This document shows, in pieces, positions 11,534 to 49,389 of a stretch of DNA of 64,000 bases. The notes beneath the pieces were generated by a model, which made no database searches, was not told the DNA's origin, and saw only the letters and a program-made list of their open reading frames with translations. Source of the stretch: Ulva prolifera (lineage: Eukaryota; Chlorophyta; Ulvophyceae; Ulvales; Ulvaceae). The stretch spans positions 1,383,481 to 1,447,480 of the forward strand of contig CM041203.1 of the NCBI GenBank assembly GCA_023078555.1, in the 5' to 3' direction. The position numbers and the translations under genes are program-made. Within the stretch, counting starts at the first letter, position 1. Each line of letters opens with the position of its first letter.

Positions 11534-14151
<2,618 letters not shown>

Positions 14152-21501: not shown

Positions 21502-24500
21502 ATGGCGCAAGGCTCAGCCGCATCCATTCTGGCTGCAGCAAACTCCGGGGCGGTGAGAGGAAACCGAGGCTACTCAGCTCCCGGCACGCTTGCACGCCAC
21601 AAGCCATGGGGAATATGTATCAATCTGTCCTGGCTGTGCTTGGGGTACATCATCGGCGTGTGCGTGACGATGTACATGTCGTTCAAGGCATACACGCCAG
21701 CGTGGATCGACCAGCCCGTGGGCCAACGCAGTAGCGCGCTCCCGCAAACCCTGTCAGAACATCGTACGCCCTCTTCTCATCGCATGCGTGGATGCGTGTG
21801 CGGTACCAGCGCCAGCAGTGCAGCGCGGACGGGCTTCTGCCACGGCGCATGTGCATGCAGGAAAAGGGCTGGCGAGCGAGACCTTGATCGTACGCCAGGA
21901 GGCAGCACAGGATGTCAGAACGTCCCTGGACAGCGACTCGGGCGATGTGGCCCGCGTTGCGGCTGCCCCCGACTCCGTGGCTATCCTGGACAGTGTCGTG
22001 AAAGCGACAGACATCGGCGGGGAGGCACAGCATGAGCAGGGAGCAGTTGCCGAGGCCGGGCTGCAAACGGACAGCGAGACAGACGCTGCAAACGCAGCGG
22101 CTACCAAGTCCTCCACAGACGGCAACACAGACCAAGAGGCAGCAGCGCAGCCGCCCCCCGAGGCCCCCACCCCTTCACCCGGCAGCAAGGAGGAGGACTT
22201 TGACGCAGACAAGGTGCCGCAACACACACACCTTGCATGCACACGCACACACCCACATGCATGTGCTAGCTGCTGAATTTGCGAGTGGATCCCGAGCACC
22301 GGTTGCGTGCCCGGCCTCGAGCTCTGTCGTCCGCAACCACATGCATGCGCTCGTTGTGCTGGATTGGTGGGCGTGTTTGCAGCGTTGCTGCTTCCGCAGC
22401 ACTGCTCGCCTCGCCGCATGTAACCATGTCACACACATCCATCTGTGTTTCAAACTCCAGGAAACACGCCAGCCTCCAGGGGTGCCTGCATCAGCACCCT
22501 CACGCCTGCGCCTGCACCCAACTGCAGCGGTATCTTGCCGCTAACTTAGCATAGTATTGAATCAAAAGTTTATTACACCTCCTACGTGCATGCTCTGCAG
22601 AGGGGAGTGGGCAGCACTGACGTGCCCTCACACCGTGTGCCGCTTGCTCAGGCCAGGCCTTTTTCGATCCACGGCTGCCACGAGCCCCGGGAGACACCGC
22701 ACCTAACACCAGTGTTAACACGCAAACACCCTGTGTGAATGCGATCGTCGCTGCAGCCTGTGAAGGGTCCGCCGATGCCACGGCTGGTGATTTATGAGGC
22801 GCAATGCCTGAGTTTCATAGTCTTGAGCGACCCCAGAGCTGCTAGGGTTTGATTTGCATGCATGCAGGTGAAGGAAGAGGCTGCCACGTTCATGGAGGTC
22901 ATGCATGCAGGTGAAGGAAGAGGCCGCACGCCTGAGCAAACTGGCATACGAGGAGACGATCGCCAAGTACCCAGAGGTGGAGTTTGACCCTCCGTCCGGG
23001 CCGGTGCCGAAGTTTGTGCCTGCGGTACTCGACGGCGACGTGATCCCAGACAAGTACCACGTCGTCGCGGTCGGTGACTGCCAGATCTACCAGGGCTGGC
23101 AGTTCCTGGTGTGCCCCTGTCACCACGTCTGCCCATGCATGCGCATTGCTGCGGCGCCACAACTTGGGAACAAGGTGCACAGCTTGTTTTTTATCACACT
23201 TTCCCAAGGGGAACGCCTCCACAGGGGGCTGATGCGCTGACTAACTAGAGGGGGGCAGAGGTGCTGGAAGGCCTGATCAGATACTTGCGCACACCTCTGG
23301 CCACCCGCAACCTGCCATGGACCCCACTTCATTCGTTTTTGACCCAATACCCCCCCCCCCCCCCCCCCACACGTGACTCCATTTCAGTGGCCTTGCAGGC
23401 AAACTACAATGAGTACAAGAAACTGAAGAAGGCGTACCCAGACAGCCCGATGGGTGGCTACACGCGGCTCATCCACTGCGACAAACCTGACAGCCTCATG
23501 CACCTCGTACCCAGCTTCCGCGTCAACTCGCTGCCGTGGGAGATCACGAAAGGCTATCCCCCCCAGCAGCGCTCCTGGGCGTTTGTGCAGTGGCTGATGC
23601 GCTACCCCGTGCGGGAGCAGTACATCCTGTCGGTCGACCCGGACACGCTGTTTGTCGTGCCGCCGCCGCTGCTCGCAACCCCGGACACCATCTTCGCGTA
23701 CCCCTACCACTACATCAACTGCCAAAACCCAGACATACGGCCGATGTGTGAGGTCCCTGAGTTCAACCCCAACGGAGTGCCTGTCGACCAAGTGCCACCG
23801 GTGCGGACCCGTCACTCTGAGTGTGTCTGTATCTGATGAGCCGGGTAGTGGCGCAGGGCACACCACCCCTGCCAGACTGCCGCTGACGTCACCGTTGTAG
23901 GCATGCCGGCCGTGTGCCCCATGACAACGCGGCGGCGCTCCCCCCCCCCCCCCCCCCCCCCGGTCTGTGCCGCACTGGCCGGCCTGGGCCACTGTCGCAC
24001 CTGCGCGCGCCTTTGCGCCATAGACCGCGTGATAGACCGGGTGCTAGACCGGGTGCTCCACCCAAACCCGCGGTTGCGCCTGTACCCTCACAGCGACCCT
24101 GACACACAGGCCGCCGTTGCATGCAGATCGGGGGAGCCCCGCTGATCATCAGCACCAAGATGATGCAAGAGGCGGCGCCCGGGTGGGACTCCCTCATGCG
24201 CACGATCCACGCCGACGAGGAGGCGACGAAGGTGTTCAACTGGGTGCTGGACATGTACGCGTTTGCACTCACCGTGGCAAAGCCCGACGTGAAAAACGTG
24301 AGGCTCAACCGCTGCCTCATGCAGCACCCCCCCTGGGACCGGGATATCGTCATCGACACTGCCGACGTGCGAGCCTTGCCCCTCTCCCCCCCCCTCCCCC
24401 CCCCCCCGCCAGGGCTCCGCCTACCTGCTGCATGATCGCCCCATTCAGCTTCTGTGTGGATAGACTGAGAATGGATGGCCTCTAGCAGCTGCTGTGAGAC

Positions 24501-24964
24501 CGCTGTGGATCCATTGCTGTGGGTGCCAGGCAAAGATGGGTGTCGTCCGCGCTGTATCTACGGGTTGGCCAGCATCTATGGGCATGCATGATGTGCATGC
24601 TATGTATGCTGTGCGTGCTGTGTATGCTGCTCCAGGCAGCACAGTAGGACGACTGTGTGTGCAGATGGGCGACAAGGAGAACTGCCAGATGGGGGGGGAC
24701 GAACGGTTCGTCGATGTGCCGATCATCCACTACACCCACGCACAGCCCCTGGGCGAAGACGGCAGTAAGGTCGACATCGAGGGGGCGTTCTGGAACTGGG
24801 ACAAGCGGAGGCACAAGGCACACTACCCGACGGTGCCGTTCGATCCGCCCCCGGAGGGGGCGCCGGAGACGATCAAGCAGATCGTCATGCGGATCAACGA
24901 GGCGGCCACGACCCCTGAATTTGCGGATTTCTGGCGGGCCCACACAGACCTCAGCGAGGAGTAG
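21502..24964 (+). CDS. HPAT/SGT-like glycosyltransferase, paralogue A
   Basis: Six exons, 21502-21763, 21861-22213, 22911-23108, 23399-23800, 24127-24366 and 24665-24964, give 584 residues. Residues about 38-59 are a signal anchor (LSWLCLGYIIGVCVTMYMSF), predicting a type II Golgi membrane protein. Exon 2 encodes an acidic, low-complexity stalk. Exons 3-6 encode the catalytic domain. Hallmarks of the hydroxyproline O-arabinosyltransferase / peptidyl-serine alpha-galactosyltransferase families are MGGYTRLIH, RSWAFVQWLM, YILSVDPDTLFVVPPP (DxD-like metal site), GGAPLIIS, FNWVLDMYAFA, HPPWDRD and VPIIHYTH, then a tail matching the family's PE(T/S)-containing C-terminus. Likely donor UDP-arabinofuranose or UDP-galactose, acceptor hydroxyproline- or serine-rich wall glycoproteins; which one is undecided. 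The exon 3 acceptor region is tandemly duplicated (22868-22910), but only the downstream site keeps frame. Confidence 0.85.
22843..22930 (+). repeat. Tandem duplication around exon 3 acceptor of copy A
   Basis: The block TGCATGCAGGTGAAGGAAGA occurs twice, 43 bases apart, at the 3' splice site. Using the upstream acceptor (after 22867) shifts the frame, so the site after 22910 is the productive one. Copy B keeps CTGCCACGTTCATGGAGGTC but has no intact upstream acceptor. Confidence 0.8.
23351..23370 (+). repeat. Poly-C tract, intron 3 of copy A
   Basis: A run of about 19 C on the sense strand, about 30 bases before the exon 4 acceptor. One of many intronic poly-C tracts that are C on the sense strand of the host gene. 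Confidence 0.85.
24384..24411 (+). repeat. Poly-C tract downstream of exon 5 donor, copy A
   Basis: C-rich tract starting about 18 bases after the exon 5 donor. Equivalent tracts follow the same donor in copies B (35460-35478), C (minus, 38850-38836) and D (48635-48664). Confidence 0.8.
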
Positions 24965-25495
24965 CACGCCCCGGGAGCCAGCAGGCTCCTGATGCAACAG
25001 CAGGGCTCATGTTTGCGTCGGCGGTGTTTTAGACACTTGAATGGCGCGTGATCAGCCTCTGGCATTTACAAAAATGCAGAAGAATGGCGTAGCGTCCAGA
25101 GGCTGCAGATGCCTGCCTCGAACGTGGCGAATTTTGTGTAAACCTGGTACAAGGCCGTCCTGATTCTACATGCTCTCAGTTATCTCAACAGTACGCCAAG
25201 CGCTACCTTTGACTGATTGCGACATCCACACGGCACCTCGGAACTATGGGCCCCACAGTCCTGCGTGATTGCAAACTAGGCGAGGCGCCTGCGCCGGGCA
25301 AGCACAGAGTGAAAGCAGCTGTCAAATGCAGCACGTGTGTGTTCTATGTGTATACAGTCGCATCTATGAGGTCAGCTGCGCGCCACTACCGAGGTCAAAG
25401 TTATTCCCAAACGCAGATGTAAATGTCCCGCGGGGGGGGGGGGGGGGAACGCCCTAGGCACGCATGCACACGGCCAACACACGGCCAACACAGCC
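24965..25495. other. Convergent 3' region, no gene
   Basis: The 3' ends of glycosyltransferase A (plus) and the ABC transporter (minus) face each other here. A G-run at 25432-25447 is poly-C in the sense of the transporter transcript. No coding signal. Confidence 0.5.
25137..25141 (+). terminator. Candidate polyadenylation signal TGTAA for copy A
   Basis: TGTAA about 173 bases after the stop codon of glycosyltransferase A. Confidence 0.4.
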
Positions 25496-28400
25496 TCAGC
25501 TCGGGTTGTGGTCCAGCTGCCAGCCGTCCCCAAACGCCGGGTCGAGCGTGAGCACGGACTCGGCCACCCGCGCCGTCTCCTCGCGGTGGCTGATCGCGAC
25601 GATCGTCACGCCCGCCTGCATCAGCGCATCCAGCAGCCGCAGCTCCACCTCCGCCGGCACCGCCCCGAGCGCCTCGTCGAGAATCGCGACCTCCGGCCGC
25701 GCCCTCAGCACACGCGCGACCGTCACGCACTGCAGCTCCCCGCGCGACAGCGCCATGCGCGCGTCCGCCCGCGCGCTGCATGCGTACCGCGCCGCCACCC
25801 CGTCGAGCCCCACCGCGCGCAGCAGCCGCACCACCTCCTCCGGCGAGCAGTCCTCCCCGTCAGGGTACGCGAGCTGCGCCGCTAGACTCCCCCCCGGCGC
25901 CTCGACAGGGTCCTGCGGCAGGAACATCGCCCGCACGCCGGGCCGCCACCGTACCTGCCCCGCCGCCAGCGGCACGAGCCCCCGCAGCGCGAGTGCGAGC
26001 GTCGATTTGCCGACCCCCGGCGGCCCCCGGATCATCAGGTGCTGCCCCGGCAGCAGCTCGAACGTCACAGCACGCGCAGCGCAGCGGCCGTACTCCGTCA
26101 GCAGCCCGCCGGACCGGCACGCGCTGTGCACCTCCGCCTCATACACCGACAGCAGCGGCGCGCTCCCGGACGCCGCTGGCGCGGCCGCCGCCTCCCGAGC
26201 GTCCAGCACGCACGCCTTGTGCATGGCCGCCATGACGTTGACGAACGGCGCCGTCGTGAACATCGTGACCGGGTACGTGGCGGAGCCGTGCTTAGGGTGC
26301 ATGATGAGGCCGACGCCGCCCGCGGACTTGACGGGGTAGCGCAGGCACACCTGCGCGCCGATCGCCTCCGAGTAGGCCGCGGCGGCGCCGGTGTGGCGGG
26401 CGAGGCCGGAGCGTGGGTCCACCGAGTCGCACCAGCCGCCGTGCGCAAGGAGGTTCGCCGACACGGTCGCCTCCCACGCGGCAAACGCCTCCGCCAGCTC
26501 GTCCATGCGCCTCTGCTTCGCCTGCACGCATCACGGTCGTCACCGGCTGCGATCTCGCGCAATGCACGCATGATCAGCCGCTGGCCCGCGGCGGTCCCTG
26601 TGCCGAATCAGGTGGACACGTGTGAGGTGCCGTTGTCTGGTTGGTCGAGGTGCGCCACACGTGATAATAAAAAATGGTGCATGCATTGCCTGAGGTGGGG
26701 GGCGGCGCACATGCTTTGGGAGCTTGCCGCGCGCGCCGCCAGGCATCAGCGGCTGGTACGTGCACAGAGCCAGCAGCGGCACGCCCGCCGGGCACGCCGG
26801 GAACACCGCCCGCACGATCTCCTGCAGTTCGAGCGACCCGAGGCGGTGCACCGACACCTCGAGCGCGCGGCCGCCGGGCAGCACCGCCGGCGCCGGCCCC
26901 AGCAGCGTCTCGACCTCCCGTGCCAGCTCCTCCGGGTCCGCGTTTCCAAACGCGTTGATCAGCTCCCCCGCGTCCGCCCTGCCGTGTACTGGCCGCATCT
27001 CCTGCCCGCCACTCCCCCGCCCACCCCCGACCTTCACCTCCACCGCCTCGGGGCCGCCGCCGGCCGCGCGCGCGCCCTCCGGGTGCTCAAACGCGGCGCC
27101 GGGCTTCCCCCCGTCCCGCGCCGCGGCCGCCGCGACCTGCGCGACGACCTCCGTGACGCGTGCTGTGTGCCCCGCGACCTCCCCGAGCTTCTGCGTCGCG
27201 TCGAGCAGGGACGTCAGGGAGTTGATGAGCATGAGGAGGTAGAAGGAGGCCTGGCTGATGTCCTTCGCAGCCGCGCCGTGGCTGCCAGCGTCGCTGGACA
27301 TCGTGCCGTAGAACACCGCGACGCCGATGGTCGCGTAGTTCATGACCATCGCGTAGTAGTCCCCGGCCTGCACGCGCACAACCACTTGCCGACAGCCCCA
27401 CACGCGGCGCTCTCCGGACAATCGACGGGCGCTGCCGGCCGCTACTGTCGCAGAAAAACCCGTGGGACACGCTCACGGGTCTGCGGACCCCGTGCCTTCC
27501 CCGCACGTTTGCAGCGGTGCGGTGCCGTGCGGCCGCTCCGCTCGGCCCCAGGACCCCGATGCATGCACAGTGCAGCTCCGGCACCCAGGGTCGAGCCCAG
27601 TCACAGCTACGCATGCCAGGGACACGCCGGCGGCAGTTCCGCAGCTCCCCAAAGAGGACACGTACGGCCCTCTGCGGGCAGGTGGGCGGCGCGCACCGTG
27701 GCCACGAGGCGCTGCGCGCTGTAGCACCACGCGAGCCAGGTCTGGCTGCGCAGGGCGGCCGCCAGGGCCGCGTCGGCGTGCCGCCGCTCGACCGCCGGCC
27801 CCCCGGCCGCGGCGATCGGCAGCGCGGCGCGGCAGACGCGCAGGTGCGCGGCGCGCAGGTCGCCCTCGCGCCGCTGGTTCGCGTACACCGCCGACGCGAG
27901 CGCGGCGACAACGATGCGGTGGATGAGGCCGAAGGTCACAAAAAAGGCGAGCGCGGCAAAGACGGGCAGGGCGCTGCGGAAGAGGGAGGTGCAGAGGTAG
28001 GTGTACATGACGAGGTTGAAGGGCGTCTTGGCCGTCTTGAGGATGAAGGTCTGGAGGGAGTTGGCAAAGTCGGTGATGTCCTGGGTGAGGCGTTGGTCTA
28101 GGTTGTCGAGGCGGTGGGGGTAGTGGCGCGGGGACGCGGCCGGGCTCCCGGGGAGGAGCAGGAGTGCGTCTTCGTCCGTGCCGCCGCTGAGGCCGAGTGT
28201 GAGGGCCGTGGCGTCTGTGCGGGGGCTGAGGGCAGCGCGTGGGCTGTACGGCGTGTGGCTGGAGGGCGGGACTGTGGCGGTGGTGTCTTCGGCTGGGATG
28301 GACTGGAGCGAGGCGAAGACGTTGTGCTTGAAGTAGGCGGCGTGGAGGTGATCTGTGATTCTCCGTCTCCAGTGGATGGCGAAGAATTGGCCGGCTGCGT

Positions 28401-28729
28401 AGCTGGCCGTGTTGGTGACGACGACGGCAGAGTAGAACAAGGCAGACTCGAGGAGCACGGTGCGGAACTGGGAGATGTTTCGGTCGACGTAGATGCTGTA
28501 GAACTGGCCGATGATGCTGCCAACTGCACTGTGTTGCGTCGCTTATTGCCGTTGTTGGCAGGAACGCTGGTGAAGGAGCGTCTGTTGTTCAAACTGTTTG
28601 CGTAGGCCAGGGCGTACCTCGCGAGACAGCCAGCACCTCGAGGATGGCAAGGACTAGCATGATTGATGCAGGCCAGATTTGCGCGACTCTGCAGAGGTTG
28701 AACAAAGAGCGCGCAAAATCCGCGTCCAT
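25496..28729 (-). CDS. ABCD-like ABC half-transporter with long insert
   Basis: Four exons, 28729-28618, 28523-27697, 27367-26711 and 26521-25496, give 873 residues with consistent phases (1, 0, 0). Exons 1-3 encode an ABC_membrane_2-type domain: an N-terminal hydrophobic helix, IIGQFYSIYVDRN, and the family-typical NLDQRLTQDITDFANSLQ followed by membrane helices and SFYLLMLINSLTSLLDATQ. The C-terminal ATPase has Walker A GPPGVGKST, Q-loop FLPQDP, signature LSRGELQ, Walker B VAILDEA and switch VAISHR. Relatives (ABCD1-4, BacA/SbmA type) move acyl-CoAs or cobalamin in peroxisomes or lysosomes; ABCD4-like is the closest impression. It is longer than usual because roughly 250 residues, Ala/Gly-rich, separate the membrane domain from the ATPase. 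The signature has Arg for the second Gly and Walker B continues LGAV instead of TSAL. The half-transporter should dimerise. Confidence 0.85.
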
Positions 28730-31700: not shown

Positions 31701-32725
31701 ACTGAGCTGAAGGTTGAGTATAGAGGCTGGTTGAGGTACTCCGCACGTGGATCCGAACTGTACGTATGAACTGTGAACTTTTAAATTTGCCTCCACTCAA
31801 GCACTGCCCGGTTTTCTGCTACACATTTCTCCCAATAGCTACAGTAGCTACAACAGATTGCATGGTACCGGGCCACGAACACGCTCCTGTGCTATCGCAT
31901 GCATTGTGCAGCAGCATATGGTGGCGCCGCACTGCCATCATGAAGCAACTACAACTACTGTTCTATCCCATGGCCACAAGCAGCTCCCGAAGTTGATGCC
32001 GCGGTGTCGTGAATCGATTGTTCGCGTATGAACGCGGCGCATGTCCATCGCGTGCATTGTCTGCGCCGTTTTCTCGACTGCCCGCAGCTGCTTGCGCAGT
32101 CCCCGCTGCATGCAAAACCTCAAGGCTGCGAGCCTAGGCTTGTCAGAGTCCTTCAAGTTTCTCAATGCTTGATCTCAGAGATACCGAGCCCCGTCGCGCC
32201 AGCGATTTCAACAGCATACATGTGTGAGATACCTGCGTTGTGTTGTCAGGGTCATGTTGTCTTCTGTACGACACATCGCCGACATGAAGGGCTAGCATCT
32301 GCGACGACGCGGCTATGACGCCGGTATGACGCGGCCAACTTAAGCTTGTTTGCTTTCGAAGCTTCTGAACCCCGCGTGAACGCGATTCACGACGCGTCGC
32401 GACGGAGAACGGCGCATGCATATCTGCGACACAAGTCGAGGTTGACCTTGCATGACCCGACGAGCCCATTTGGACACCAAGCTGCAGCGATCCGCAGGAC
32501 GGAATAGACAGGGAACTACCTGAAACCACCCGCAGTTATGGAATAGTGCAGCGAGAAGGCTTCTCCCTGTCCGTTGCGTCTCGCCCATTGCGTGCGACCG
32601 TGATATCATGAACCACCGACTGTGCCATAGCTAGCGCTCGCCGGAAAGGCTGCGTGCCTTCTCCACCCGGGGCCAGTTCCAGACAGAAGACAACATACAT
32701 TGGAGTTTAGAGTGTCTGTAGTGTG
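28730..32725. other. 4 kb gene-poor interval
   Basis: Both strands were read. Open frames (plus 30902-31336, minus 31194-30805, minus 30534-30121 and others) lack motifs, good splice partners or recognisable similarity. The 5' end should contain the ABC transporter promoter. The last 100 bases are the leader of glycosyltransferase B, which shares blocks such as CTCCACCCGGGGCCA and GAGTGTCTGTAGTGTG with the leader of copy D. GAGATCTAGGA-type words repeat near 30580-30615. Confidence 0.4.
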
Positions 32726-34971
32726 ATGGCGTATCGTTCAGCCGCGTCCATCCTGGCTGTAGCCAATGCGAGAACTGGAGCTGTGAAAGGCAACAGAGGC
32801 ACCGCGCGAGCGGCTCCCGGCGCACTTGCACGCCTAAGAACATGGACAGCTTGTTTGAGTCTCTCGTGCCTTTGCCTAGGGTACATCATCGGCATGAGCG
32901 TGACGACGTTCACGTCGTTCAAGGCCTACGCGCCAGCCTCGAGCGACCACTCCGCGGGCCTGCAGCGCAGCGCGCTGCCGCAAACTCTCACAGTGCATCG
33001 TACGGTCCTTTTCTGTCCCATGTGTGGATGATTTCGCGGGTCAGCGGCTGCAGTGCAGCGGCATAGCGGCTTCGGGATGCTGCCATTGCGCACGTACATC
33101 AAGCGCAGGCAGGCGCGTGATTTAAAAAAAAGCCTCATAGAAGAGCGAATGGACCTTAAACAGGAACATGCATGCACATGTAGGCAGATCGATGGCGAGG
33201 CAGGCGTTTGCGGTGCGCCAGGAGGCCGCACAGCAAATGAGCACCTCGGTGGACATGGACAGCGGCTCGGGTGATGTCGGCCACGTCGCTGCAGTCCCCG
33301 ACCTCGTGGCAAACTCTGCTCAACTTTCCGAGGCATCCCTGCGGAAGGACAGCCCAGCAGACAGGCACGACGACGACGAAGCCCCGTCGCGTCTCGAGAC
33401 TGCAACCACTGGCAACGCGGACCAGGAGTCGGCAGAGCAGCCGATTCCCGACATCGACACTCCCCCACCTGCACAAACCGGCGGGCATGATGACTTTGAT
33501 GCGGACAAGGTGCGATTGCACGCACGTGTGTGCACCATGCATACACACGCGCGCAGCACCAGCAGCGATATCGGTGCACAACTTGAAGCAAGCTGGTACG
33601 TAGGGCCCGGGGGGCTGTGCACATCCCCGTCCCGTCGGACACAAGAGGTCACGGGTCTGATCGAACAAACCCAGCACTATGGAGCTCCATGGAGTCTCTC
33701 CCGAAACAACACACACAGCCAGATGCAGCAGCGCCACCCGCACCTGAGCCCCCCCCCCCCCCCCCCCCCCCCCTCCTCCCGGCAGCACCAGCCACCGCAG
33801 CACCTGCATGCACAACCACGTCAGGCGGGGCATTAAGGGATTGCCGCAGCTGTGATCGGTGCTGGTGTTGGTCTGCGTGGGACTGGCTGTGGCTGGGGCG
33901 GATGGTGCTGAGTTTCTCAGAGCAGCCCGCTGGGGTTCTCCGGCGCAACCTGCGCCTAGCTGCCTGAGGCCATGGAGCTGCAATTCGCCCGGCAGGCTGC
34001 CACGTTCATGGAGGTCATGCATGCAGGTGAAGGAAGAGGCCGCGCGCCTGAGCAAGCTGGCATACGCGCTGACAATCTCAAACTACCCAGAGGTGGAGTT
34101 TGACCCCCCCCACGGGCCGGTGCCGAAGTTTGTGCCTGCGATACTCGACGGGGACGTCATCCCGGACAAGTACCACGTCGTCGCAGTCGGCGACTGCCAG
34201 ATCTACCAGGGCTGGCAGTTCCTGGTGTGCCCCTGTCACCACGTCTGTCCATGCATGCGAGGGTACGCGCTGTGCCACTTGCATGCACCTGCCCATTGTA
34301 TTGTAATGATTGTTATTCCACGGATTGTCACGCAGGCAAATTATCATGGGTACCAGAAGATGAAGAAGGAGTACCCGGACAGCCCGATGGGTGGCTACAC
34401 GCGGCTCATTCACTGCGATGAACCCGACAGCCTCATGCACCTCATCCCCAGCTTCCGCGTGAACGCGCTGCCCCCGGACGACATGAGAGGCTACCCCCCG
34501 AAGCAGCGCTCCTGGGCGTTTGTGCAGTGGCTGATGCGCTACCCCGTGCGGGAGGAGTACATCCTGTCGGTGGACCCGGACACGGTGTTTGTGGTGCCGC
34601 CGCCGCTGCTCGCAACCCCGGACACCATTTTCGCGCTGCCCTACCACTACATCGATTGCATGAACCCGGACGTGCGGCCGATGTGCGAGGACCCCCGGTT
34701 CAACCCTAACGGAGCGCCTGCAGATCAAGTGCCGGCGGTGTGCCCCCCCTCTGCGCACATTTGTGTGTGTGTGCCTACGACCGATTGTTTGCTGCGCTTA
34801 CTCTGCGTGTGTATGCGGCCGCGGCTGCCGGTCTCTGATACATCACAGGGATTGGCTTCGGGCGGCCAGGACCGCAGGCGCCGTCGCTGGGGTCCGATCA
34901 TCGGCGCATCGCACGCGGGCCACCCGTTGTCAGTTGTAGCGATGCCATGCCTGCATGCTAGCGGTGGGGCG

Positions 34972-35041
<70 letters not shown>

Positions 35042-36446
35042 CGGCCGCAGCGCCTGCGTCAGCACCCGGGGTGGGGCCTGATGTGTGGGGCCTAATGCCC
35101 GGCTTGTATTTCGTCAGTGCAAGCTGGGCATCAGGCCATTTGAGCCTCCGTAATAGGGTAATCACCCTTGCGGCACTGACACAGACTGACATGGCATGCA
35201 TCTGCAGATCGGGGGAGCCCCGCTGATCATCAGCACGAAGATGATGCTCGAGGCGGCGCCTCAGTGGGACGACAACATGCGTACGATCCATGCGAACGAA
35301 ACCGCGGCAAAGACGTTCGGGTGGGTGCTGGACATGTACGCGTTTGCGTTTGCCGTGACGAAGCCCAACGTGACGAACGTGAAGCTCAACCGCTGCCTCA
35401 TGCAGCACCCTCCGTGGGAGCGGGATGTGGTCATCGACACCAACAACGTGCGAGTCCTTGCCCCCCCCCCCCCCCCCCGCCCCAAATTAATTAGCCAAAT
35501 ACCTGCATGACCAGTCCATATGTAATATGTTGTGATGCCGGCGCTGCAGCCATCGCTAGCGTAGCCATGGTATACATGTGTGCGTATATGCATGTGCACA
35601 GTCCCGTGTGCGTTGGGACTGTGTATACGCGTATACATACACGTGTGTACATGCGTGCGTTGGGACTGAATGGTAGCTGCCGACTGTTGCGGCGGTCGGG
35701 ATCGTTGTGAGCGACATCTGGCAGCGGAGTTCTAGCACTTGCGGGTGTGGAACGTGGGGTGCTTGCTGCATCCTGCACAAAAGGTGCAGCGGTGAGCAGC
35801 TGATTGATCAGCAGCCGCCAGCGTGCATATGCATGCTGCTTGTATGTAGCCGTGAGGTGACAGGAAAGCTCACGTGGCTGGCAGCGCCCCGTGAATGGGT
35901 CATTGTAGCTTTCTAACAACTTGTTGAACAACACAAAGTCAACGGTTTCCGATTGGACTTGGTGTAGTGCACGGGGCCGCACTTGATCCAGAGCTTCCAT
36001 GGCATGGAGCCGATGGCTGAAGCGAGTGAATACGCTTGCGGCGCCATGGCCTGGAGCTCACGGCGAAGGCTGCCTGAGCATTGCTCCCAGGCGCACCCTC
36101 CATGCGTAGGGGCACATATACACACCAACGAGTGCGCGTCTTGGTGCAGATCGGCGACCCGGAGAACTGCCGGATGGAGAATCAACGGTTCACCAAGGTG
36201 CCGATCATTCACTACACGCATGGGCTGGCGCTGGGCGAAGACGGGAGGACGGCACCCATGGAGGGGGCAGTGTGGAGCTGGAACAAGCGGAGTTACATGG
36301 CACACTACCCGACGGTGCCGTTTGACCCGCCCCCGGAGAACGGGCCGGAGACGATAAAGCAGCTCATATCACAGATCAATGAGGCGGCCGCGAGCCCCGA
36401 GTTTGCGGATTGGTGGCGGGCGAATACGGACCTCAGCAAAGAGTAG
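32726..36446 (+). CDS. HPAT/SGT-like glycosyltransferase, paralogue B
   Basis: Exons 32726-32999, 33184-33509, 34027-34224, 34336-34737, 35208-35447 and 36150-36446 give 578 residues, with the same phases as copy A (1, 0, 0, 0, 0). The signal anchor is LSCLCLGYIIGMSVTTFTSF; the stalk exon keeps only the VRQEAAQ word and an acidic end DFDADK. Catalytic markers MGGYTRLIH, RSWAFVQWLM, LSVDPDTVFVVPPP, GGAPLIIS, GWVLDMYAFA, HPPWERD and IIHYTHG are intact, so the enzyme should be active. Intron 4 holds a 68-base TG microsatellite, intron 2 a long poly-C tract (33750-33773) and intron 5 another just after the donor. It is closest to copy D in its 5' leader. The start was chosen at the ATG just after the shared GTGTG leader. 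Confidence 0.85.
33750..33773 (+). repeat. Poly-C tract, intron 2 of copy B
   Basis: Long C homopolymer on the sense strand within the intron; part of the strand-biased poly-C pattern. Confidence 0.85.
34973..35040. repeat. (TG)n microsatellite, about 34 units
   Basis: A pure TG dinucleotide run within intron 4 of glycosyltransferase B. Long open frames reading alternating Cys and Val across it are artefacts. Confidence 0.98.
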
Positions 36447-36599
36447 CATGCACATCCAGTCAGCTGCGCACAAGGAGGGCGGTGACTGACGTGGGCGTGC
36501 TCGCTGCTGTGCCTAGGCAGCTGCTGGGGATGCAGGGGCGGCAGCCGTGCGCTGACCGCGCTGGCGGCGCGGCCGGCGCAAACCCTGACTGCTAAAGAG

Positions 36600-37060: not shown

Positions 37061-37144
37061 GCTGCCGGCAGCCCCGAATGCAGCGCTGGTTGCACCTCCG
37101 CAGCCAGCAGCACGGCCTGCGCTGGGGGTGATGACGGCAGGCAT

Positions 37145-37376
37145 GGGGGTGGAAGAACATCATCGTGGTACTGCGTCAGAGGGCCGCCCGCGGGCTGCAC
37201 GACCGGCAGCACCTGCCCCCGCACCTGGCGCAGCTGCTCATTGCCCACCCGGCACTCGACGGCAACGCGGACGGGGGCATATCAGCACCGAGGAGTTCTG
37301 CATGATTATACCGCGCATACAGGACCATTGGCACAAGGCAAAGATCAACCCGCAGCGAGGCAGCCGCAGCTCGTGA
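37145..37376 (+). pseudogene. Partial copy of last exon of the 17.2-19.5 kb EF-hand gene
   Basis: Strongly similar to 19238-19456: GCACGACCGG, CTGGCGCAGCTGCTC, TTGCCCACCCGG, GAGGAGTTCTGCA, CATTGGCACAAGGCAAAGATCA all match or nearly match. A small deletion within the EF-hand loop shifts the frame (the source reads DANADGRISIEE), so the copy cannot encode the domain intact. The upstream exons are absent, showing a truncated genomic duplication. Confidence 0.85.
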
Positions 37377-38201: not shown

Positions 38202-41200
38202 CTACTCTTTGCTGAGGTCTGTGTGGGCCCGCCAGAATGCCGCAAACTCACGGCTCATGGCCGCCTCATTGATCTGTGAGATGATCTGCTTCACGGTCTC
38301 GGGCCCACCCTCCGGCGGCGGATCCAACGGCACTTTCGGGTAATGCATCATGTCGCTCCGCTTGTCCCAGTTCCAGAACGCGTCGGGTATCGGCACCGCC
38401 TGCCCGTCCTCGCCCAGCGCCTGAGCGTTTGTGTAGTGAATGATCGGCACGTGTGTGTACCTCTCATCCCCCATGCGGCAGTTCTCCGGATCACCAATCT
38501 GCAAACACACACACCCGGGTCTGGTGATGCTGAGAACGCCACACACATGCATGGCACACATGGCCCCACTGGTGGCAGCGACCACCACGGCAAGCCCACA
38601 CGTTTCGTTAGGCCCGCCTCGGGGGCTCGAAGCATGGAGGCAATCGGAGCCACGTTTAGCAGTCACCCCTTGCTCCAGGGGTGCTGCACGGTAGCCCCAC
38701 ACACGAAGAGACTCCCCCGCCGGCTGCAGCACTCTCTCACGGCAGCCCCTCTGCGGCGCGAACCGCCGCTGCTTGCCCCACATTCAGTCCGTCCACACAG
38801 CAGCTCAATGGCTCGGTCATGCGGCAGATGTTTGAGGGGGGGGGGGGGGGTTCGCACTTGGTCAGTGTCGATGACCAGATCCCGTTCTCGCGGAGGGTGC
38901 GCCATGAGGCAGCGGTTAAGCTTCACATTTTTCACGTTGGGCTTCGTCACGGCCAGTGCAAACGCGTACATATCCATGACCCACCCGAACTTGTCCGACG
39001 CGGCCACGTCGGCGTGGATCGTACGCATGAGGATGTCCCACCGCGGCGCCGCTGCATGCATCATCTTCGTGCTGATGATCAGCGGGGCTCCCCCGATCTG
39101 CACGACGCCACGGCTGCTGTGTCAGGCTTACGGGGTGGCTACAGGCAGCGGCCCTCGCAGCTGGCAGAGATCCCCAATCATGAGCCGCAGCTTAGGGGTG
39201 CATGGAGGCGTGGCACCGCGGGCCGGGACAGCCAGTGCGGCATATGTACACAGCGGTGGCCAGCGCAGCCTCCTCGTGGGAGGACACGCGCATCGATACA
39301 ATAATGCATATGATCGTGTGCCCGAGCGAGGGCGTCAGCCACAGGCACAGCACAATAGACGGCTGCGCTGGCGCTGGCGCGGACACCGGGAAGGGCGTCG
39401 GCGGCTCACGCCGCTGCCAGTGGGATCGTGCACGGGCCAAAGGGTTCGATGACACAGGCCCGCAGGCACCGCCCCCTTGACAGTCGAACACATCAGGGTT
39501 TGCCGGTGCGCGTCGGCTGCGGCGGAGCATCCGCACGAATAACCCTGCCGCAGCACAAGGCAGGTGCCGGTGGAGACATGCCGCGGCGGGGTCGTCACGG
39601 CTGCGGAGCAGCGCATGGACAGCCATCACCCCCGCACCAGCATACAGGCAGTGTCGGGCGTCGACTGGCATCGGGACAGTGGGGACGCGGTGGCGCTGGG
39701 ACTCGTGCGACATGCTGCAGCTGCCCGATACGATAGTATTGATATCGTGGCCTCTTGCTGGCGTACGACTCCCACTCGCTGGGACGCACCGCCGGCACTT
39801 CTTCTGCGGTCACTCCGTTGGGGTTGAAGCGGAGGTCCTCACACAACGGCTTCAGTTCTGGTTTCTTGCAGTTGATGTAGTTGTACGGCAGCGCGAAGAT
39901 GGTGTCCGGGGTTGCGAGCAGCGGCGGCGGCACCATGAACAGCGTGTCCGGGTCGACCGACAGGATGTACTCCTCCCGCACGGGGTAGCGCATCAGCCAC
40001 TGCACAAACGCCCAGGAGCGCTGCATGGGGGTGTACCACCGCATATACTCCATGGACAGCGCGTTGACGCGGAAGCTGGGGATGAGGTGCATGAGGCTGT
40101 CGGGTTTGTCGCAGTGGATGAGCCGCGTGTAGCCGCCCATCGGGCTGTCCGGGTACTCCTTCTTCATCTTCTGATACCCGTAGTAATTTGCCTGCATGGC
40201 CACGCGCGCGGTCATGTGTGGGGCCCGCGCTGGGACGCGGTCGGCTGGCCGTATGAGCCCGCATCTGGCCGGCGAGTCCCCGGCATCCCTTGGCAGCTTA
40301 TGCGATATCAGCTGCCGTTCACACGTGGACCATCGCCCTCGGCTGCGCATGCATGTGGCGCTGCAGTGGTGCGCTCGCACATGGGCCGAGGTGGTGAGAG
40401 GGGCGCACCAGGAACTGCCAGCCCTGGTACGCCTTGCAGTCGCCGACCGCGACGACGTGGTACTTGTTCGGGATGACGTCGCCGTCGAGCTTCGCGGGCA
40501 CAAAGTCGGGCACGGGCCCGTGCGGGGGGTCAAACTCCATCTCTGGGTACATCTTGATCGTCTCTTCGTATGCCAGCTGACTGATCATGGCTGCCTCTTC
40601 CTTCACCTGCATGCATGGCCGGCATGAACACGGCGGTACCCGGCCGGGGCGCGCTGTGGGTGCGGCAGCCAGGCCACACGCACGGGCGGCCACTGCTCTT
40701 GGTGGTACGCGGAGGCATATGTATGTACATATACATGTAGTTACAAAGGACAGAGGCCGGGAAGCGAGCCGTTGCCAAGAATACACACGCAAATCCACTC
40801 ACGCAGTCATGGCACTAGGCTGGGCACGAGCACGTACCACAGCTCGGCCAGGCACATGTATATGTACAAATGCATATATACAAGCGACTTGTATATATGC
40901 ATATATACAAGCGACAGGCCCCCCTTCGGGCGGCTCTTACGCTTTGATACTCGAAGCTGAAGCATGAAGCTCGATGCTGGCGGAGCGCTGCAGTTCGCGT
41001 GGCCAGAGGTGCAGCTGCGGCGCTCTGCTGCTCGCTGCGTGGTGCTTGAAGCTCTATATATAGAGTTCTCTCTGCGATTGCCAACACACCGCGGACCTCT
41101 CGGGGCACCGTGACTTGTTTGTGCGGATGCCATTCAGAAATGTGTTGGTGCTAGACTGGAATATTTCGAGTTGGGCGATGCGATCGGGCGCGGCGGCCGG

Positions 41201-42313
41201 GCAATGCCGCACGCATGTGCCGTGCTGTGCCATATTCTGTGTCGTGGGGGGGGGGGGGGGTGCGAGAGCTATGTACATCGACCCGGCGGTGCTGGAGGAC
41301 GTCACAGGCGCACATGCATGGATGCATGAGCTGTGCCAAGCACTCAGAAGGTATGATTTGCTTCCATGCTGGGCCACTAGCGCAGCCACCCGAGCCAGGC
41401 AGCGCCCGCTGCCTGGGGCCGGCCACATATTCTTGCAGGTGTATGTGCACAGCGTATGAAGTCTCACCAGGTCGGCATCGAATGCGAAGGTGTCTGCTAC
41501 AGCTGGGTCTGTGTTGTCAGCTGTGGTCATCTCGGGAGGCGACTGTGCTGTGTCATCACCTTGGCTGTCCTGTTGCAAGGCTGCCTGGGAAGCTTGTCCC
41601 TCACGCTCATGCGCGTGAGACCTCTCATCGATGTCTGCCGTTTCATCGACACTTTCGAGGACAGCCACGGCACCTGGGGCATCCGCGACTCGGGCCACAT
41701 CACCCAAGTCACTCCCTTCTGATGTACTGATAGCCTGTGCTGCCTCCTGGCGCGCCGTAACGGCTTGGCTCGCCATCGATCTGCCTGCATTTGGATGTGA
41801 TCGATTACAGAAGAGTAAACGGGAATAGACAAACGCAACAAAGAACCTCTTCCGAATCAACCGCCACACAGACACGGCAACACTACATCAGCGCACATGC
41901 TTCAGTCCGTCAGCACTGGGACCTCCAGACGTACGGACGTGCATGCAAATACGGACGCAGCTGCGCGCTGTGGAGCCCTTCCCCGCTGCACTGCTGGCGC
42001 CAGAACAGCGCAAGGAGCCACGCATGCAGCGAGCAGGTATCGCACGATGCTCCGAGAACGTTAGCGGGTCGTTGATCCGTTGTCCGCCCACGTATTGGTG
42101 GCTCCAGGCTGGCGTGTGCTGCTTGAACGAAGTGAACATCGTGAGAAACACGCCGATGATGTACCCCAGGCAGAGCCATAACATACTGGTGCAATTTAGC
42201 CACGGCTTCAGGCGTGCAAGCGCGCCGGGAGCTGAGTTGCCTCGAGTTCCTCTCACGCGCACGGCCCCAGCGTTTCCTGCAGCCACGATAGACGCAGCTG
42301 ATCTACGCCCCAT
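38202..42313 (-). CDS. HPAT/SGT-like glycosyltransferase, paralogue C (inverted)
   Basis: Exons 42313-42046, 41784-41468, 40606-40409, 40191-39790, 39097-38858 and 38498-38202 give 573 residues with the same phases, and exons 3-5 have exactly the lengths of the other copies (198, 402 and 240). The signal anchor is LWLCLGYIIGVFLTMFTSF. Motifs MGGYTRLIH, RSWAFVQWLM, LSVDPDTLFMVPPP, GGAPLIIS, GWVMDMYAFA and IIHYTN are present. Two departures set it apart: HPPW is HPPR, losing a Trp kept by A, B and D and by the HPAT family, and the segment before RSWAF is more divergent (MEYMRWYTPMQ). It is the only copy on the minus strand and has the most diverged leader. Activity or substrate may differ. Confidence 0.85.
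38836..38850 (-). repeat. Poly-C tract after exon 5 donor, copy C
   Basis: Run of G on the plus strand, C on the sense strand, starting right after the GTGCGAA donor; equivalent to those in copies A, B and D. Confidence 0.85.
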
Positions 42314-42690
42314 TATACTGCACCAGCTCTGACTTCTATCGCCATCTGGCCATTCCTGAGCTGCTTCTGGCTCGGGGATGAGGATGGCCACAGCCTGGTT
42401 CAGCGCTGTGGTAGTTCACGTTGCGAAACGGTCTATCGCGTGTAGGTGGCAAGACGCAACGGGCAGCTTGAAAGGTTCAACCTGCGCTGTGCTATGCATA
42501 TGTTTGCTGAAAAGATCACGGAGCTCGGTCGCCAGCAGAAGGTTCGCAGGAGCATTGCGAGTGTATAATGCGTGGACATATGTAATGTTGTCCGTGCCCA
42601 ATGTCGCAACATGCGGGCTATGCATACATCTCTGAAGTGTAAACGGGAGAGAGCAGACATGGTACAAGCGTCTTGTCCGATGCAGCAGTG

Positions 42691-42691
<1 letters not shown>

Positions 42692-42786
<95 letters not shown>
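42692..42786. repeat. (CA)n microsatellite, about 47 units
   Basis: A pure CA run of 95 bases. It lies upstream of copy C's start, complementary in type to the TG run in copy B's intron. Confidence 0.98.
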
Positions 42787-42788
<2 letters not shown>

Positions 42789-43298
42789 CCACGCTGCAGC
42801 AATTGAGAATCGCAGTTCGGAGCGTGTGACCGCGTCCGGTGCTTCGTCCGGAGTCATGTCGCGAGCTTACGAACCGCTGTACATGTGAGTGGCTAGCGAT
42901 AGGAGCGCGGACACACGAGAGATACACGAGCTGAGCTACCTTGTCGCAGAGCCAAAGCAGCATTCAGAGTGTGTGGAACACGGATATGATCGACCAGCAG
43001 GATGCGGTATGGCGCACATGCGGGACGATGTGCTTGTGGAAGATGTGCGGATGTCGATGGTCGCATGCTAGCCGGTAAAACCCAGCTGGTGAGGCCTTTG
43101 AGGGGGCTCACATAGAAAGTCTTTCGTTGTTTATCATATGCTTTATATGTACCTTGTGAGCTGACAGTGTGCATGTACAAATGAGCGAATAGCCGAAGGA
43201 ATTCTCGCGCGCAGCCAACTGGATGCTGCGGGCAACTGGGTGCCATCCTGTCATATCCTGCAGAGCTCAGTGTGGGCCGCACAGTGATCAGCTGCAAG

Positions 43299-43460
43299 AT
43301 GTCAAGGGCAGCGAGCGCTCTCCGCAGTCGGATTAATGCCGCATCAAGGCCCCAACGACTCATGTCGAGACAATGGCACGGACCGCATATCCGATCACCT
43401 GATGAACGAGATCATATTGTATATTTGTCCAATGGTCCATGGTTTGGCGTGGATGACGTG
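43299..43460 (+). CDS. Candidate first exon of a mitochondrial-type protein (partial model)
   Basis: An ATG opens 54 codons that start with a basic, Ser/Ala-rich, acid-free presequence-like stretch (MSRAASALRSRINAASRPQR), then LMSRQWHGPHIRSPDERDH and a strong GTGAGC donor in phase 0. A 24-base segment at 43503-43526 flanked by AG and GTGAAC would continue in frame, but no further exon was found. It could be a real small organellar protein or chance. Confidence 0.3.
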
Positions 43461-44164
43461 GTGAGCAGACGAAGCACAACACCCGTACACGCCCAGCTAC
43501 AGGTTGTCAAAGCCCACAGCGGACAGGTGAACACGGCTTTCTGGTTCACGTGAGCCACGACGTATGACTTTGGGGGCTTCTATTCGCGCAGTGTGATCTC
43601 TGGAGTCCCCCCTCCCCACACCTGGCTCTAGTGAGCCTGCAAAGACAGTGACACCCACGATTGGTTGGGTAACCACTGCTCCTTCAGGCAGGCAGCACCA
43701 CACAGGTAGCACCTTAGCGCTGGCTGAGGCGGATATACGTGCGTGACAGCTCGAAAGGACGGGTTCCCTTCTGCAGACTGCGCTTTGAGGGGCATCCTCC
43801 GCTGCAGCTTGTGCTACAAGAACAGCGTCAGAGACGCAGGCTGCAGCACACTGCCCTAGGCATCACACTGCAATGCATGCCCTAGGCAGCACACTGCAAA
43901 CTCGTGGGCTTGCGATGCTTCCTGATTTTGCAGTGCTGCCTGCCACGCCCGCCTCTCGACATATCTCAGCTGACCTTAACGTCAATTGAAGAACACCATA
44001 CAGCAACAGCATAGGCCGCACAGCCACACCACGTCAGCACCGGCAAACGCAGAACGTTGTCAAGTCACCCCCGCTACTCCACCGCAGTTCAACATCGCAG
44101 TTTCTAGCCCACAAACACCACCTCCCCGGGGCCGCTGCAGCTTGATGCCTGGGTACAGATGTGC

Positions 44165-44285
44165 TGTGGCACAGTGTTTGGTCGCTTTGCAGCATTTCCA
44201 GGACTGCTCGACCTGAATACTCGGAGCTGTTCTATTTGATCGGGCCAGATGACCCAACACTGCTGTGGCAGCTGGTCTAATGGTG
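44165..44285 (-). repeat. Dispersed repeat copy 3
   Basis: The reverse complement matches 7309-7430 closely (CTGCCACAGCAGTGTTGGGTCA, GGCCCGATCA, GTCCTGGAAATGCTGCAAAGCG split by a small deletion). It lies outside any modelled gene. Confidence 0.7.
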
Positions 44286-45320
44286 GTCATTGGGGTTTTG
44301 CCACATGTTAACCATGTGAATTCAGCTGCTAGCAGCTGCTCTGTTGCAGGGGTGTGGCAAGTGCATGCAGTCGCACTTTCGATAAGCAAGCAGAGTTTCA
44401 ACCTCCATGTGAGCACCCAACAGGTGGCGTAGTGACGCAAACTCTGTGGCGCGTATGTGGAGGTTCTTACACATCAGTTCACATGTGAACGCATGGCCAG
44501 ATTTCCCTGGGAGGCTGGCCAGTTCCATCATACACATGACCTGTGCACAGGTGTAGCGCCAGGCAAGCTGTGTACAACTTAAGCCAAGGACTGCCACAAC
44601 CCATCAGCTTCGTAAATAAGCCCATAAGCAATTTTGATGTTTGTAGAGTAATCCCGGCAGGTACATCAAAGTTTCTTTCCTGTGATGCAGCCGGCCTGAG
44701 CTATGTTCGTGTCCATGCATGCCATCGCTGTCGCAGCTCCCGTGGATCCCCATGGGGCCCCATGCATTTGTGCGCATTATATCCAACGCAGCTGCGCGCA
44801 GAGATGATATGGAGTAATCGCTAATCATCGGGATTGTGAGGCGGCGCATGCATATCGAAGACACCGATTATTCGGGAGCTTGTACGCCCGTTATGCACAC
44901 TTCAACACAGTCGCGGTGCAGGCTTGGGCTGCTGCACAATTCTACAGGAGACGTCACGTGGGCTCCTACTTGCTTGACATCAGTCAGAGCATTCTGAGGG
45001 ACGTGAAATCTGCTGTGTGGATCGCGAACACTCTTCGGAGATCATCGGGCAAGCTTAGGGATTGCCTTCCGAGTAGGCGCTGTGCTGCTGACACCCGATC
45101 GCGGTGGTGTTATCTGTAGACATTTACAAGCCCAGCGTGACCATTTCAAGTTGCTCCTTGCGTCTTGACAGCTGCGTGTGACCGCCCAGCGTCGTGAACA
45201 GCTCGCCCATGCTGGCTACGTATACTGCGCTCGCCAGATAGGCTGCGTGCCTGCTCCACCCGGGGCCATCACCAGACACAAGATAGCAGATATCAGAGGA
45301 GATAGAGTGTCTGTAGTGTG

Positions 45321-48300
45321 ATGGCGCATGGCTCAGCCGCGTCCATCCTGGCTGCAGCGAATGCGAGAACCGGAGCTGTGAAAGGCAACCGGGGCACCGC
45401 GCGAGCGCCTCCCGGCGCACTTGCACGCTCTAGAGCCTGGGGAACATGTACCACACTGTCGTGGCTGTGTTTGGGATACATCATCGGCGTGTGCGTGACG
45501 ATGTTGATGTCGTTCAAGGCATACACGCCAGCGTGGAGCGACCGCACCATGGGGCGTCAGCGGATACTCCACCCACGGACCCTTTCGGAACATCGTATGA
45601 TCTCTATCTGTTGCATGTGCGGATGTGTTTGCAGGTCAGCGGCAGCGGTACAGCGGCGATGTCAGCTGGTGCCACTGCGCGTATGTGCATGCAGGAAAAG
45701 GCATGGTGAGCCAGACCTCTGCTGTGCGGCAGGAGGCAGCGCAGAATATCGTAACAACAGTGGACGGTGGTTCGGATGGTGTGGCCCACGTCGCGGCAGC
45801 TCCCGGCTCCATGGCTGTCCTGGAGAGTGCTGAAGGAACGGACGATCGCGGGGCACAAGGAGAGGAAGCGCAAGGCTCCGAGGCAGCTTTGCAAACACAC
45901 AGCCATGATGGCGACACGACCTCATCGCTTCCCGAGGCGTCCACCGCTAACTTCCTGGTCCCAGCACCAGCCGAGCAGATGCGCACCGGGACGCTGCCAC
46001 CCGCAGGAAGTGCCAAGGAGGAGGCCAAGCAGGATGGCTTCGATGCGGATGTGGTGCGCTGTCATAAACCATGCAGACGAACCCACACATGCATGTGGCT
46101 GTGGCCGGCGCAGCTGCTGACGTTGCGTGGGTGTGTGGGTGTGTGCTGCGTGTGGCTTGTTGCGTGGTGTGCGGTTCCCCTGGTTGCTCGCGGTGCTACC
46201 TGCCTTGCTTGCTCTGTCCTTGTAACACATGCATGTGGCCCCTCCACAATCACAGGGATGGGCTGCACATGCATTCAACCCCCGCCCCCTCCCCCTCCCC
46301 CACATGGGATGCAGATATCGCGTCGAAGCCGCCCGCCCCGCACAGTGTCTCTGCTGAGTATCTTTTTGCTGAGCACATACAAAGCACCTCGCCGCAAACG
46401 CATGTCTCTACGATACACCTGCCCCGCACCTGGCGCAACACACGCAACCACCCGGCCTCTGCTAGCCTTCCCCTAGACTTGTTATCGCCGTCTTGATAGC
46501 CCCGACCACGCGGCTTGCACAGCACGACACCGCGCGCAGCACACTTGTTCGTGCGCTTCCTCGTTGTCCTGGCGGTGCTACCTGCCCCTCCGGCTTTGTC
46601 CTTGTAACAGCGCGCAGCACAGCGCACCGCGGCGTGGATGAAGGCACGTGTGGTAACTCCGCTCCTCCACACGTGTGATCGGCCCTAGCTGTCCGCCTTC
46701 CAGCTGATGCGCCGTGCCGCCGACGCCGCAGCTGGCAAACACGTTTGCAACTGGTGAGGTGCCACTCCTGGCCTCGAGGGCGCCTCGGGGCTGCTCCCTG
46801 AGTCGCTAGAGGCCCAGGCTGCCACATGCATGTCGGCCATGCATGCAGGTGAAGGAAGAGGCCGCCATGATGAGTAAGCTGGCGTACGAGGGGACGATCG
46901 CAAAGTACCCAGAGGTGGATTTCGACCCGCCGTACGGGCCGGTGCCGGAGTTTGTGCCCGCGAAGCGAGACGGCGACATGATCCCGAACAAGTATCATGT
47001 CCTTGCGGTCGGCGACTGCCAGGCCTACCAGGGCTGGCAGTTCCTGGTGTGCCCCTCTCCCCACATCTGCCCATGCATGCGCAACGCGCGGCGGCGCCTC
47101 GTGCATGCGCCTTTGCTGTAAACCGGCAGTGCACGCTTCAGTGTGGGCTGCTGCGGTGACGAGAGTTCGCGGACGGGCCGACCAGATGCTTGCTCATACG
47201 TCCAGCACTAGTCATCGGCAACCCACCGCGAATCACACACATGACTCAGCTTGCTGCTGCGCATGCGCATGACTCAGCTTGCTGCAGGCAAACTACCACG
47301 GGTATCAGAAGATGAAGAAGGAGTACCCAGACAGCCCGATGGGTGGCTACACGCGGCTCATCCACTGCGATGAACCCGACAGCCTCATGCACCTCGTACC
47401 CAGCTTCCGCGTCAACGCCCTGCCGTGGGAGGTCACGCAAGGCTATGCCCCGAAGCAGCGCTCCTGGGCGTTGGTGCAGTGGCTGATGCGCTACCCCGTG
47501 CGGGAGCAGTACATCCTGTCGATTGACCCGGACACCCTGTTCATGGTGCCGCCGCCGCTGCTCGCAACACCGGACACCATCTTCGCGTACCCCTACCACT
47601 ACATCGACTGCACAAACAAGGACGTCAAGTCGACGTGCGAGGATCCTCGGTTCAACCCCAACGGCGCGCCCGCAGACAAAGTGCCGCCGGTGCGCCCCCC
47701 TGACCCTGCGTGAGCATATGCGCGGCCACGGTGGCCTGTCTGTGTTGGTCTCAGGGAGTGGCCAAGGGCACCCCGGCACCCCTCGACCCTGAGCATGGAT
47801 CAGCTCAGCCGTACACCGCAGCAGGCCCCCAGTGCACCAACCATATTGAACACTCTCACAGATTACCCGCTGCGTGTGCTGTGATCACCCCGTGTGCTGC
47901 CCCAACGGCCTGAGTCCGCGTTGGTAGGACCCTGGGCGCGTGTGTGCGATGAGGAAACCAAACACAGGGCACACCGCACTGCATGCAATAACGCCCGCCG
48001 CAACGACCACCTTCCAGCTGTCGCCGCCAATGCATGCGCCGCGTTGCAGAACGGGACTGCGTGGGTGTTTGCACAGTTCACCGGCTGCCGTCGCGCAGCC
48101 ATGCGGGGACGATTCCACTTCTTGGCTTTAGAGTTTTCGATTGGTATTTTTCAATGAGCCGGTGGACACGCCGTGAGGGCCCGGCTCTTGCCCGCTGGCG
48201 GCACCAACGGCAGTGTTGCAGGGTAGGCAGCCAGTGAGGTGTGTGTGTGGGCTGCGGACAGATGTGCACGGCATCGCGGCAAATCGCGGCACCGCTGTAG

Positions 48301-49389
48301 CCGGGGCGGCCTGCGGGGGTGCCTGGGCGCGGCTCCTGCCTCCCTGCAAACCCTGACACACAGGCCGCCGTGGCATGCAGATCGGGGGAGCCCCGTTGAT
48401 CATCAGCACCGAGATGATGCTTGAGGCGGCACCGCGGTGGGACGACCTCATGCGCACGATGCACGCCGACGAGGAGACGGCGGCGCTGATGAACTGGGTG
48501 CTGGACATGTACGCGTTCTCGCTGGCCGTCGCGAAGCCCGACGTGATGAGTGTGAGGCTCAGCCGCTGCCTGATGGTACACCCGCCGTGGGACCACGATG
48601 TGGTCATCACTGCCGACAATGTGCGAGCCGCTTGACCCCCCCCCCCCCCCCCCCCCCCCCCCCCGCTTGCGTCCACACCCCGCAGCATAATCGGCCCTGG
48701 TGCAGCTGTGTGATATCATATGAATGTTGGGTTGAGATCGGCTTGCCAGAGCTCTGGCTTTGGCAGGGCTGCTGTGAATTGGAGCTGCTGGCTGGAGCGT
48801 GGAATGCTTGATGCATATAGCTGGATGTGCCCACCGATGGGGCACAGTGCCGGATCGTGGGCTCAGCAGCGTCGGTTGGTGTACATGCTGCTGCTGCTGT
48901 TCGCCGAGTATTGACCAGCAGCTGCGGACGGGCAGGGTGCCGCTGTGTCAAGTAGAGTACGTCTAGGTCTACTGAGCCGACTGTCCTCTTGGGGCATTGA
49001 TAACTCCGGTTGACCGGGACCGCATGTGCCGTCTGGGATGAGCGCGAGACATGCAGGAAGCCTTTCTGAGTGTATTTGTGGCCGTGGTGCAGATTCGCGA
49101 CGATGACAACTGCCGGATGGGTGATGAACAAGACGTCACGGTGCCGATCATCCACTACACGCATGGACTGGCGCTCGCGGAGGACGGGCACGCTGTGTCG
49201 ATGGAGGATGCGTTCTGGAGCTGGGACAAGCGGAGGCACATGGCACACTACCCGAAAGTGCCGTTTGACCCGCCCCCGGAGGATGGGCCCGAGACGATCA
49301 AGCAGATTGTCTTGCGGATCAACGAGGCGGCTGCAAGCCCCGAGTTCGCAGCTTTCTGGCGGGCCAACACGGACCTCGGCGAACAGTAG
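45321..49389 (+). CDS. HPAT/SGT-like glycosyltransferase, paralogue D
   Basis: Exons 45321-45594, 45695-46053, 46849-47046, 47288-47689, 48381-48620 and 49093-49389 give 589 residues, phases as in A-C. The signal anchor is LSWLCLGYIIGVCVTMLMSF; the stalk is the longest of the four and Glu/Ala/Thr-rich. Catalytic motifs MGGYTRLIH, RSWALVQWLM, LSIDPDTLFMVPPP, GGAPLIIS, NWVLDMYAFS, HPPWDHD and IIHYTHG are intact. A poly-C tract of about 28 bases follows the exon 5 donor. The leader shares long blocks with copy B, pointing to a recent common origin of B and D. Predicted Golgi type II membrane enzyme glycosylating Hyp- or Ser-rich secreted proteins. Confidence 0.85.
48635..48664 (+). repeat. Poly-C tract after exon 5 donor, copy D
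   Basis: Long C run beginning about 16 bases after the donor, the longest of the four equivalent tracts. Confidence 0.9.

Follow-up and report, generated by a model that had tools for sequence, protein, structure and literature searches.

The window analyzed here, a stretch of 64,000 nucleotides from the green alga Ulva prolifera (C8:1383481-1447480; the assembly comprises 44 contigs and 88.9 Mb), contains a local array of four glycosyltransferase genes with the HPAT domain at positions 21502-49389. Gene A (21502..24964, plus strand) has exons at 21502-21763, 21861-22213, 22911-23108, 23399-23800, 24127-24366 and 24665-24964 and encodes 584 amino acids, with the HPAT domain at residues 254-567 and the acidic motif DPDTLF at residue 351. 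Gene B (32726..36446, plus strand; exons 32726-32999, 33184-33509, 34027-34224, 34336-34737, 35208-35447 and 36150-36446) encodes 578 amino acids, with the domain at residues 249-562 and DPDTVF at residue 346. Gene C lies on the minus strand (38202..42313; exons 42313-42046, 41784-41468, 40606-40409, 40191-39790, 39097-38858 and 38498-38202), and its product of 573 amino acids carries the domain at residues 244-555 and DPDTLF at residue 341. Gene D (45321..49389, plus strand; exons 45321-45594, 45695-46053, 46849-47046, 47288-47689, 48381-48620 and 49093-49389) encodes the longest product, 589 amino acids, with the domain at residues 260-572 and DPDTLF at residue 357.

Joining the exons by script gave four products without internal stops, each from six exons, and reproduced what an earlier note on this DNA had claimed for the array: four intact genes on these strands and within these outer bounds, with the same four product lengths. 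Exons 3-5 measure 198, 402 and 240 bp in every gene, the intron phases are 1,0,0,0,0 throughout, and all 20 introns have GT...AG ends. The status of the genes as intact depends on the right acceptors having been chosen. In B and C, the frame of exon 2 is sensitive to this choice, with a site four bases further downstream breaking the frame and an upstream one leaving the frames open. The acceptor string of exon 3 in gene A, as read in the sequence, is duplicated on the plus strand at 22856..22924 (GCATGCATGCAG/GTGAAGGAAGAGGC or nearly so); its copies stand 43 bases apart, and the first would shift the frame while only the second keeps it. The proteins share 66-70% pairwise identity, and a tblastn search of all four against the window (E <= 1) returned just three matches outside the 24 exons, with E values of 0.50, 0.55 and 0.85, so the likeness among the copies is far above chance.

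The HPAT model of Pfam, PF23452, matches all four proteins at 213.6-218.2 bits (E 5.4e-63 to 2.3e-64), against a curated cut-off of 23.9 bits. The earlier note had labeled the genes HPAT/SGT-like and named a search against family models as a check. The alignments span 300-302 of the 307 profile positions, near the full profile, as in the plant enzymes HPAT1-3, RDN1 and PLENTY (CAZy family GT95), and at the domain level the HPAT assignment is sound. The SGT-like half of the label seems less apt, since in a comparison among loci of this genome blocks of the array resemble an HPAT-like gene on contig C6 (MGGYTRLIH in the array, MGGFTRILH in the C6 gene). SGT1 is a peptidyl serine alpha-galactosyltransferase of GT96, a family described as related to GT95 in PMC8012813. 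The same source gives HPAT1-3, three genes in Arabidopsis, as the founders of GT95 and as Golgi type II proteins. The array proteins resemble this layout in having an N-terminal hydrophobic stretch, with the most hydrophobic 20-residue window starting at residue 38 in A, 43 in B, 44 in C and 46 in D. These positions come from a hydropathy scan, which is not a transmembrane predictor and does not show that the stretch is the protein's only one; of the signal anchor claimed for each product, the stretch is present in all four and the anchor itself is putative.

A search of the genome with the HPAT model (E <= 10) returned 23 matches, which group into at least eight loci, four of them in the array, so that the clustered expansion proposed earlier holds. 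The matches, which like the loci are lower bounds, number 12 in the array genes, three each on contigs C1, C2 and C6, and two on C3. The C3 locus (L040, G000:C3:8866500-8874500) is borderline, with E values of 0.02 and 0.16, and attains the cut-off only together with its neighbors in frame. It carries IIDADMVM and QPGPITRIL, which look SGT1-like, and it sits apart from the array, which shares its blocks with the C6 gene instead. When protein A was used to search the genome, all 32 matches fell in the HPAT loci other than C3, save one fragment on C1. This fragment represents part of a broken exon 4 of the array type, and D is its nearest copy (G000:C1, near 2990952-2991134; L046). A second gene on C1 (exons 3-6 at G000:C1:5152465-5155764), with the motif EPDHIM, is the nearest kin of the array in both structure and sequence. 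Its exons of 198, 402, 246 and 303 bp occupy the places of array exons 3-6, the first two having the same lengths and phase-0 breaks as in the array; there is also a possible anchor exon upstream. Over the domain, A-D are 41-44% identical to this C1 paralog and 28.6-32.1% identical to the C6 gene, while C1 and C6 are 35.5% identical to each other. Unlike the array, the C1 paralog is a single gene, and its exons following the first two differ in length from those of A-D.

The acidic motif sets the array apart within this genome. All four array proteins read DPDT, whereas the C1 and C6 genes have EPDH, the C2 locus (L039, G000:C2:2417500-2426000) has ETDY and the C3 locus has DADM; the motif therefore varies inside the Pfam HPAT family. 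The earlier note had assigned a DPDTLF-type site to each product and taken it as typical. The first point holds for A, C and D, with B having DPDTVF, and the second is at odds with the two nearest paralogs in the genome, against which DPDT is a departure. Plant HPATs typically carry EPDH. This motif is not known as a defining feature of HPATs, and DPDT keeps the two acids at the same places.

The copies appear to have diverged long ago, and their catalytic exons are under constraint. By the Nei-Gojobori method with Jukes-Cantor correction, applied without confidence limits, all six pairs have a synonymous divergence (dS) of 0.46-0.61 over whole genes, with a ratio of nonsynonymous to synonymous divergence (dN/dS) of 0.35-0.46. 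Constraint is uneven along the gene, with dN/dS at 0.30-0.38 in exons 3-6 and 0.44-0.67 in exon 2. In a tree of six rows (A-D, C1 and C6), in which the midpoint root serves for drawing only, A-D form one clade with support of 100/98, and the branching order inside it lacks support. The stem leading to the array is long, at 1.11 changes per column, compared with 0.42 for the C1 paralog.

In our view, one Golgi-type GT95/HPAT-like glycosyltransferase has, with good probability, expanded locally long ago to form the array, and by analogy with plant enzymes it most likely transfers L-arabinofuranose (L-Araf) or a related sugar to hydroxyproline. That the enzymes add sugars to secreted proteins is very probable. 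Each copy would be a type II membrane protein, in which a short and basic N-terminus leads into a signal anchor, followed by a stem that changes fast and is encoded mainly by exon 2, and then by a catalytic domain encoded by exons 3-6. In the predicted reaction, which would be aided by a metal, a UDP-sugar donates an L-arabinofuranosyl group, or a related sugar, to hydroxyproline residues of secreted proteins, and the acids of DPDT replace those of EPDH at the presumed metal and nucleotide site. The array probably arose from a paralog like that on C1, with much change along the stem branch before duplication and constraint on all copies afterward; the copies may also have divided the labor among themselves. 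Local expansion of a gene family is an ordinary kind of event, made more interesting here by the shared change of motif.

Some of our observations weigh against this reading. In 24 aligned columns of the domain, A-D are uniform and differ from the residue common to C1 and C6, a count that is descriptive because these two were the only comparison sequences. In the numbering of D, the changes include E357D and H360T (EPDH to DPDT), E453D (EMYA or EMFA to DMYA), Q478H (QPP to HPP) and Y519L (after HYT). Because the columns are conserved, they probably lie in the active site, and shared changes there may have altered how the array enzyme acts. Since the 24 columns separate the array from both EPDH paralogs, the donor or the acceptor may differ. 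Solved structures offered no relative, as a single-sequence search found one match at chance level (E 0.34) and a profile search found none. The C6 row is also long in the tree, and constraint in exons 1-2 is weak, with ratios for copy-private changes of 0.37-1.11 in a crude count of few changes, C being highest at 1.11.

These changes could alternatively mark a new functional branch that kept the HPAT fold, in which coordinated replacement of EPDH by DPDT, EMYA by DMYA and QPP by HPP shifted donor or acceptor use, for example toward serine or threonine or the end of a glycan, after which each copy came to serve other secreted proteins and the acceptor preferences were split among the four. 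The long stem branch fits such a shift, as does the closer likeness of C1 to C6 than of A-D to C6. With only two sequences for comparison, columns placed by alignment and not by structure, and aspartate and glutamate both being acidic and perhaps equivalent, we hold this possibility only tentatively, as a minority view beside arabinosyl transfer to hydroxyproline.

The array might instead supply dosage, with four redundant copies of the same activity giving high output of one modification, an idea compatible with the chemistry proposed above. Constrained catalytic exons would be expected of such copies, and some stretches of DNA are closer than the proteins as a whole: blastn aligned B and D at 83% identity across 326 bases, starting about 99 bases ahead of the start codon, and A and B at 92% identity across 266 bases around exon 3, a stretch that takes in bordering intron bases. 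The latter pair also has the lowest exon 3 dS of the six (0.29), and together the two values hint at local exchange between A and B. Proteins that are only 66-70% identical, however, are a poor fit to redundancy, and blastn matches enter the introns only briefly, intron 1 being the exception, which aligns between A and D and partly between other copies. A run test on 106 silent codons, which has low power, found no significant run in any of the six pairs (lowest p 0.12), and we regard a pure dosage array as rather unlikely. Given this result, and despite the likeness of A and B at exon 3, we do not claim gene conversion among the copies.

It is very improbable that some copies are dead or wrongly modeled, with frames open by luck and no expression. 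The frame-shifting acceptor string before exon 3 of gene A, the broken relic on C1 and the ratio of 1.11 in exons 1-2 of gene C would be in keeping with decay. Frames open across six exons in all four genes speak against it, as does the bias toward silent change among copy-private changes in exons 3-6, where the ratios, again from a crude count, are 0.21-0.40 in all four copies.

Elsewhere in the genome, a gene for UDP-arabinopyranose mutase is present (PF03214, E 2.4e-140; best solved relative 8cid, E 1.2e-82), as are seven matches to Nucleotid_trans (PF03407), the domain carried by GT77. The occurrence of these genes makes an arabinosylation route plausible, and together with four matches to genes for the RuBisCO small subunit, at two places in the genome, they fit an organism that photosynthesizes and can produce UDP-L-Araf. 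Metal use and donor can be compared with the plant HPAT PLENTY, which was assayed with MnCl2 and UDP-beta-L-Araf (PMC6322572). Among green algae, an HPAT has been predicted in Chlamydomonas and homologs are noted in Volvox, Botryococcus and Chlorella (PMC7773692). Predicted folds are GT-A-like for GT95 and novel for GT96 (PMC8476585). The array differs from plant HPAT1-3, RDN1 and PLENTY in having DPDT for EPDH, in its DMYA and HPP blocks and in its four clustered copies. Relatives outside eukaryotes did not appear in scans of viral contigs or of prokaryote genome contigs by short exact peptide patterns, or among 14 control genomes searched with the HPAT model; because the viral and prokaryote scans require such exact patterns, absence is not demonstrated.

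An ABC transporter gene outside the HPAT family interrupts the array between A and B on the minus strand (25499..28542), with ABC_tran in the open reading frame (ORF) at 25499-26530 and ABC_membrane_2 in the ORF at 27610-28542. Pfam was run on 30 chosen ORFs, mostly longer ones outside the array genes, where 180 ORFs of at least 105 aa were counted. Besides the ABC transporter, it gave clear matches to a phytepsin-like aspartyl protease that includes a saposin-like region (12053-13195, minus strand) and to a protein kinase at ~60-61 kb. Matches below the cut-off were an alpha/beta hydrolase at ~52 kb (24.6 of 27 bits), Mitofilin at ~58.5-59.3 kb (26.5 of 27.4), MDMPI_N, Het-C and a few overlapping P-loop or kinase-like models. 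The earlier note had suggested specialized glycosylation of Hyp/Ser-rich wall proteins, a role that stays hypothetical. Neither wall-protein nor hydroxylase domains were matched among these 30 ORFs, and the idea of a functional wall-glycoprotein gene cluster around the array is unsupported by them. A pherophorin-type domain also went unmatched, by a method that cannot demonstrate absence. A dispersed repeat of ~145 bases, 85% identical between its copies at 19301-19444 and 37219-37364, lies outside the HPAT genes.

The earlier note had considered few members per genome to be normal for this family in plants. The three genes of Arabidopsis agree with this (PMC8012813), but one green alga is already reported to have an expanded family: a preprint on the genome of Auxenochlorella UTEX 250-A lists HPAT, RRA and xyloglucanase-113 among expanded orthogroups (PMC12633428). 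What that alga shares with ours is the expansion, the passage being silent on clustering and on DPDT, and the prior report makes the novelty of our array modest. We found no description of a clustered HPAT array with DPDT in the open-access literature, as judged from listings returned by searches that were not aimed at the motif. In the literature surveyed, most descriptions of how protein O-arabinosylation is initiated come from land plants and Chlamydomonas. A cluster with an altered motif beside EPDH paralogs in one genome would be a natural set for mapping the residues that govern donor and acceptor choice, which matters for a family in which we found no solved relative.

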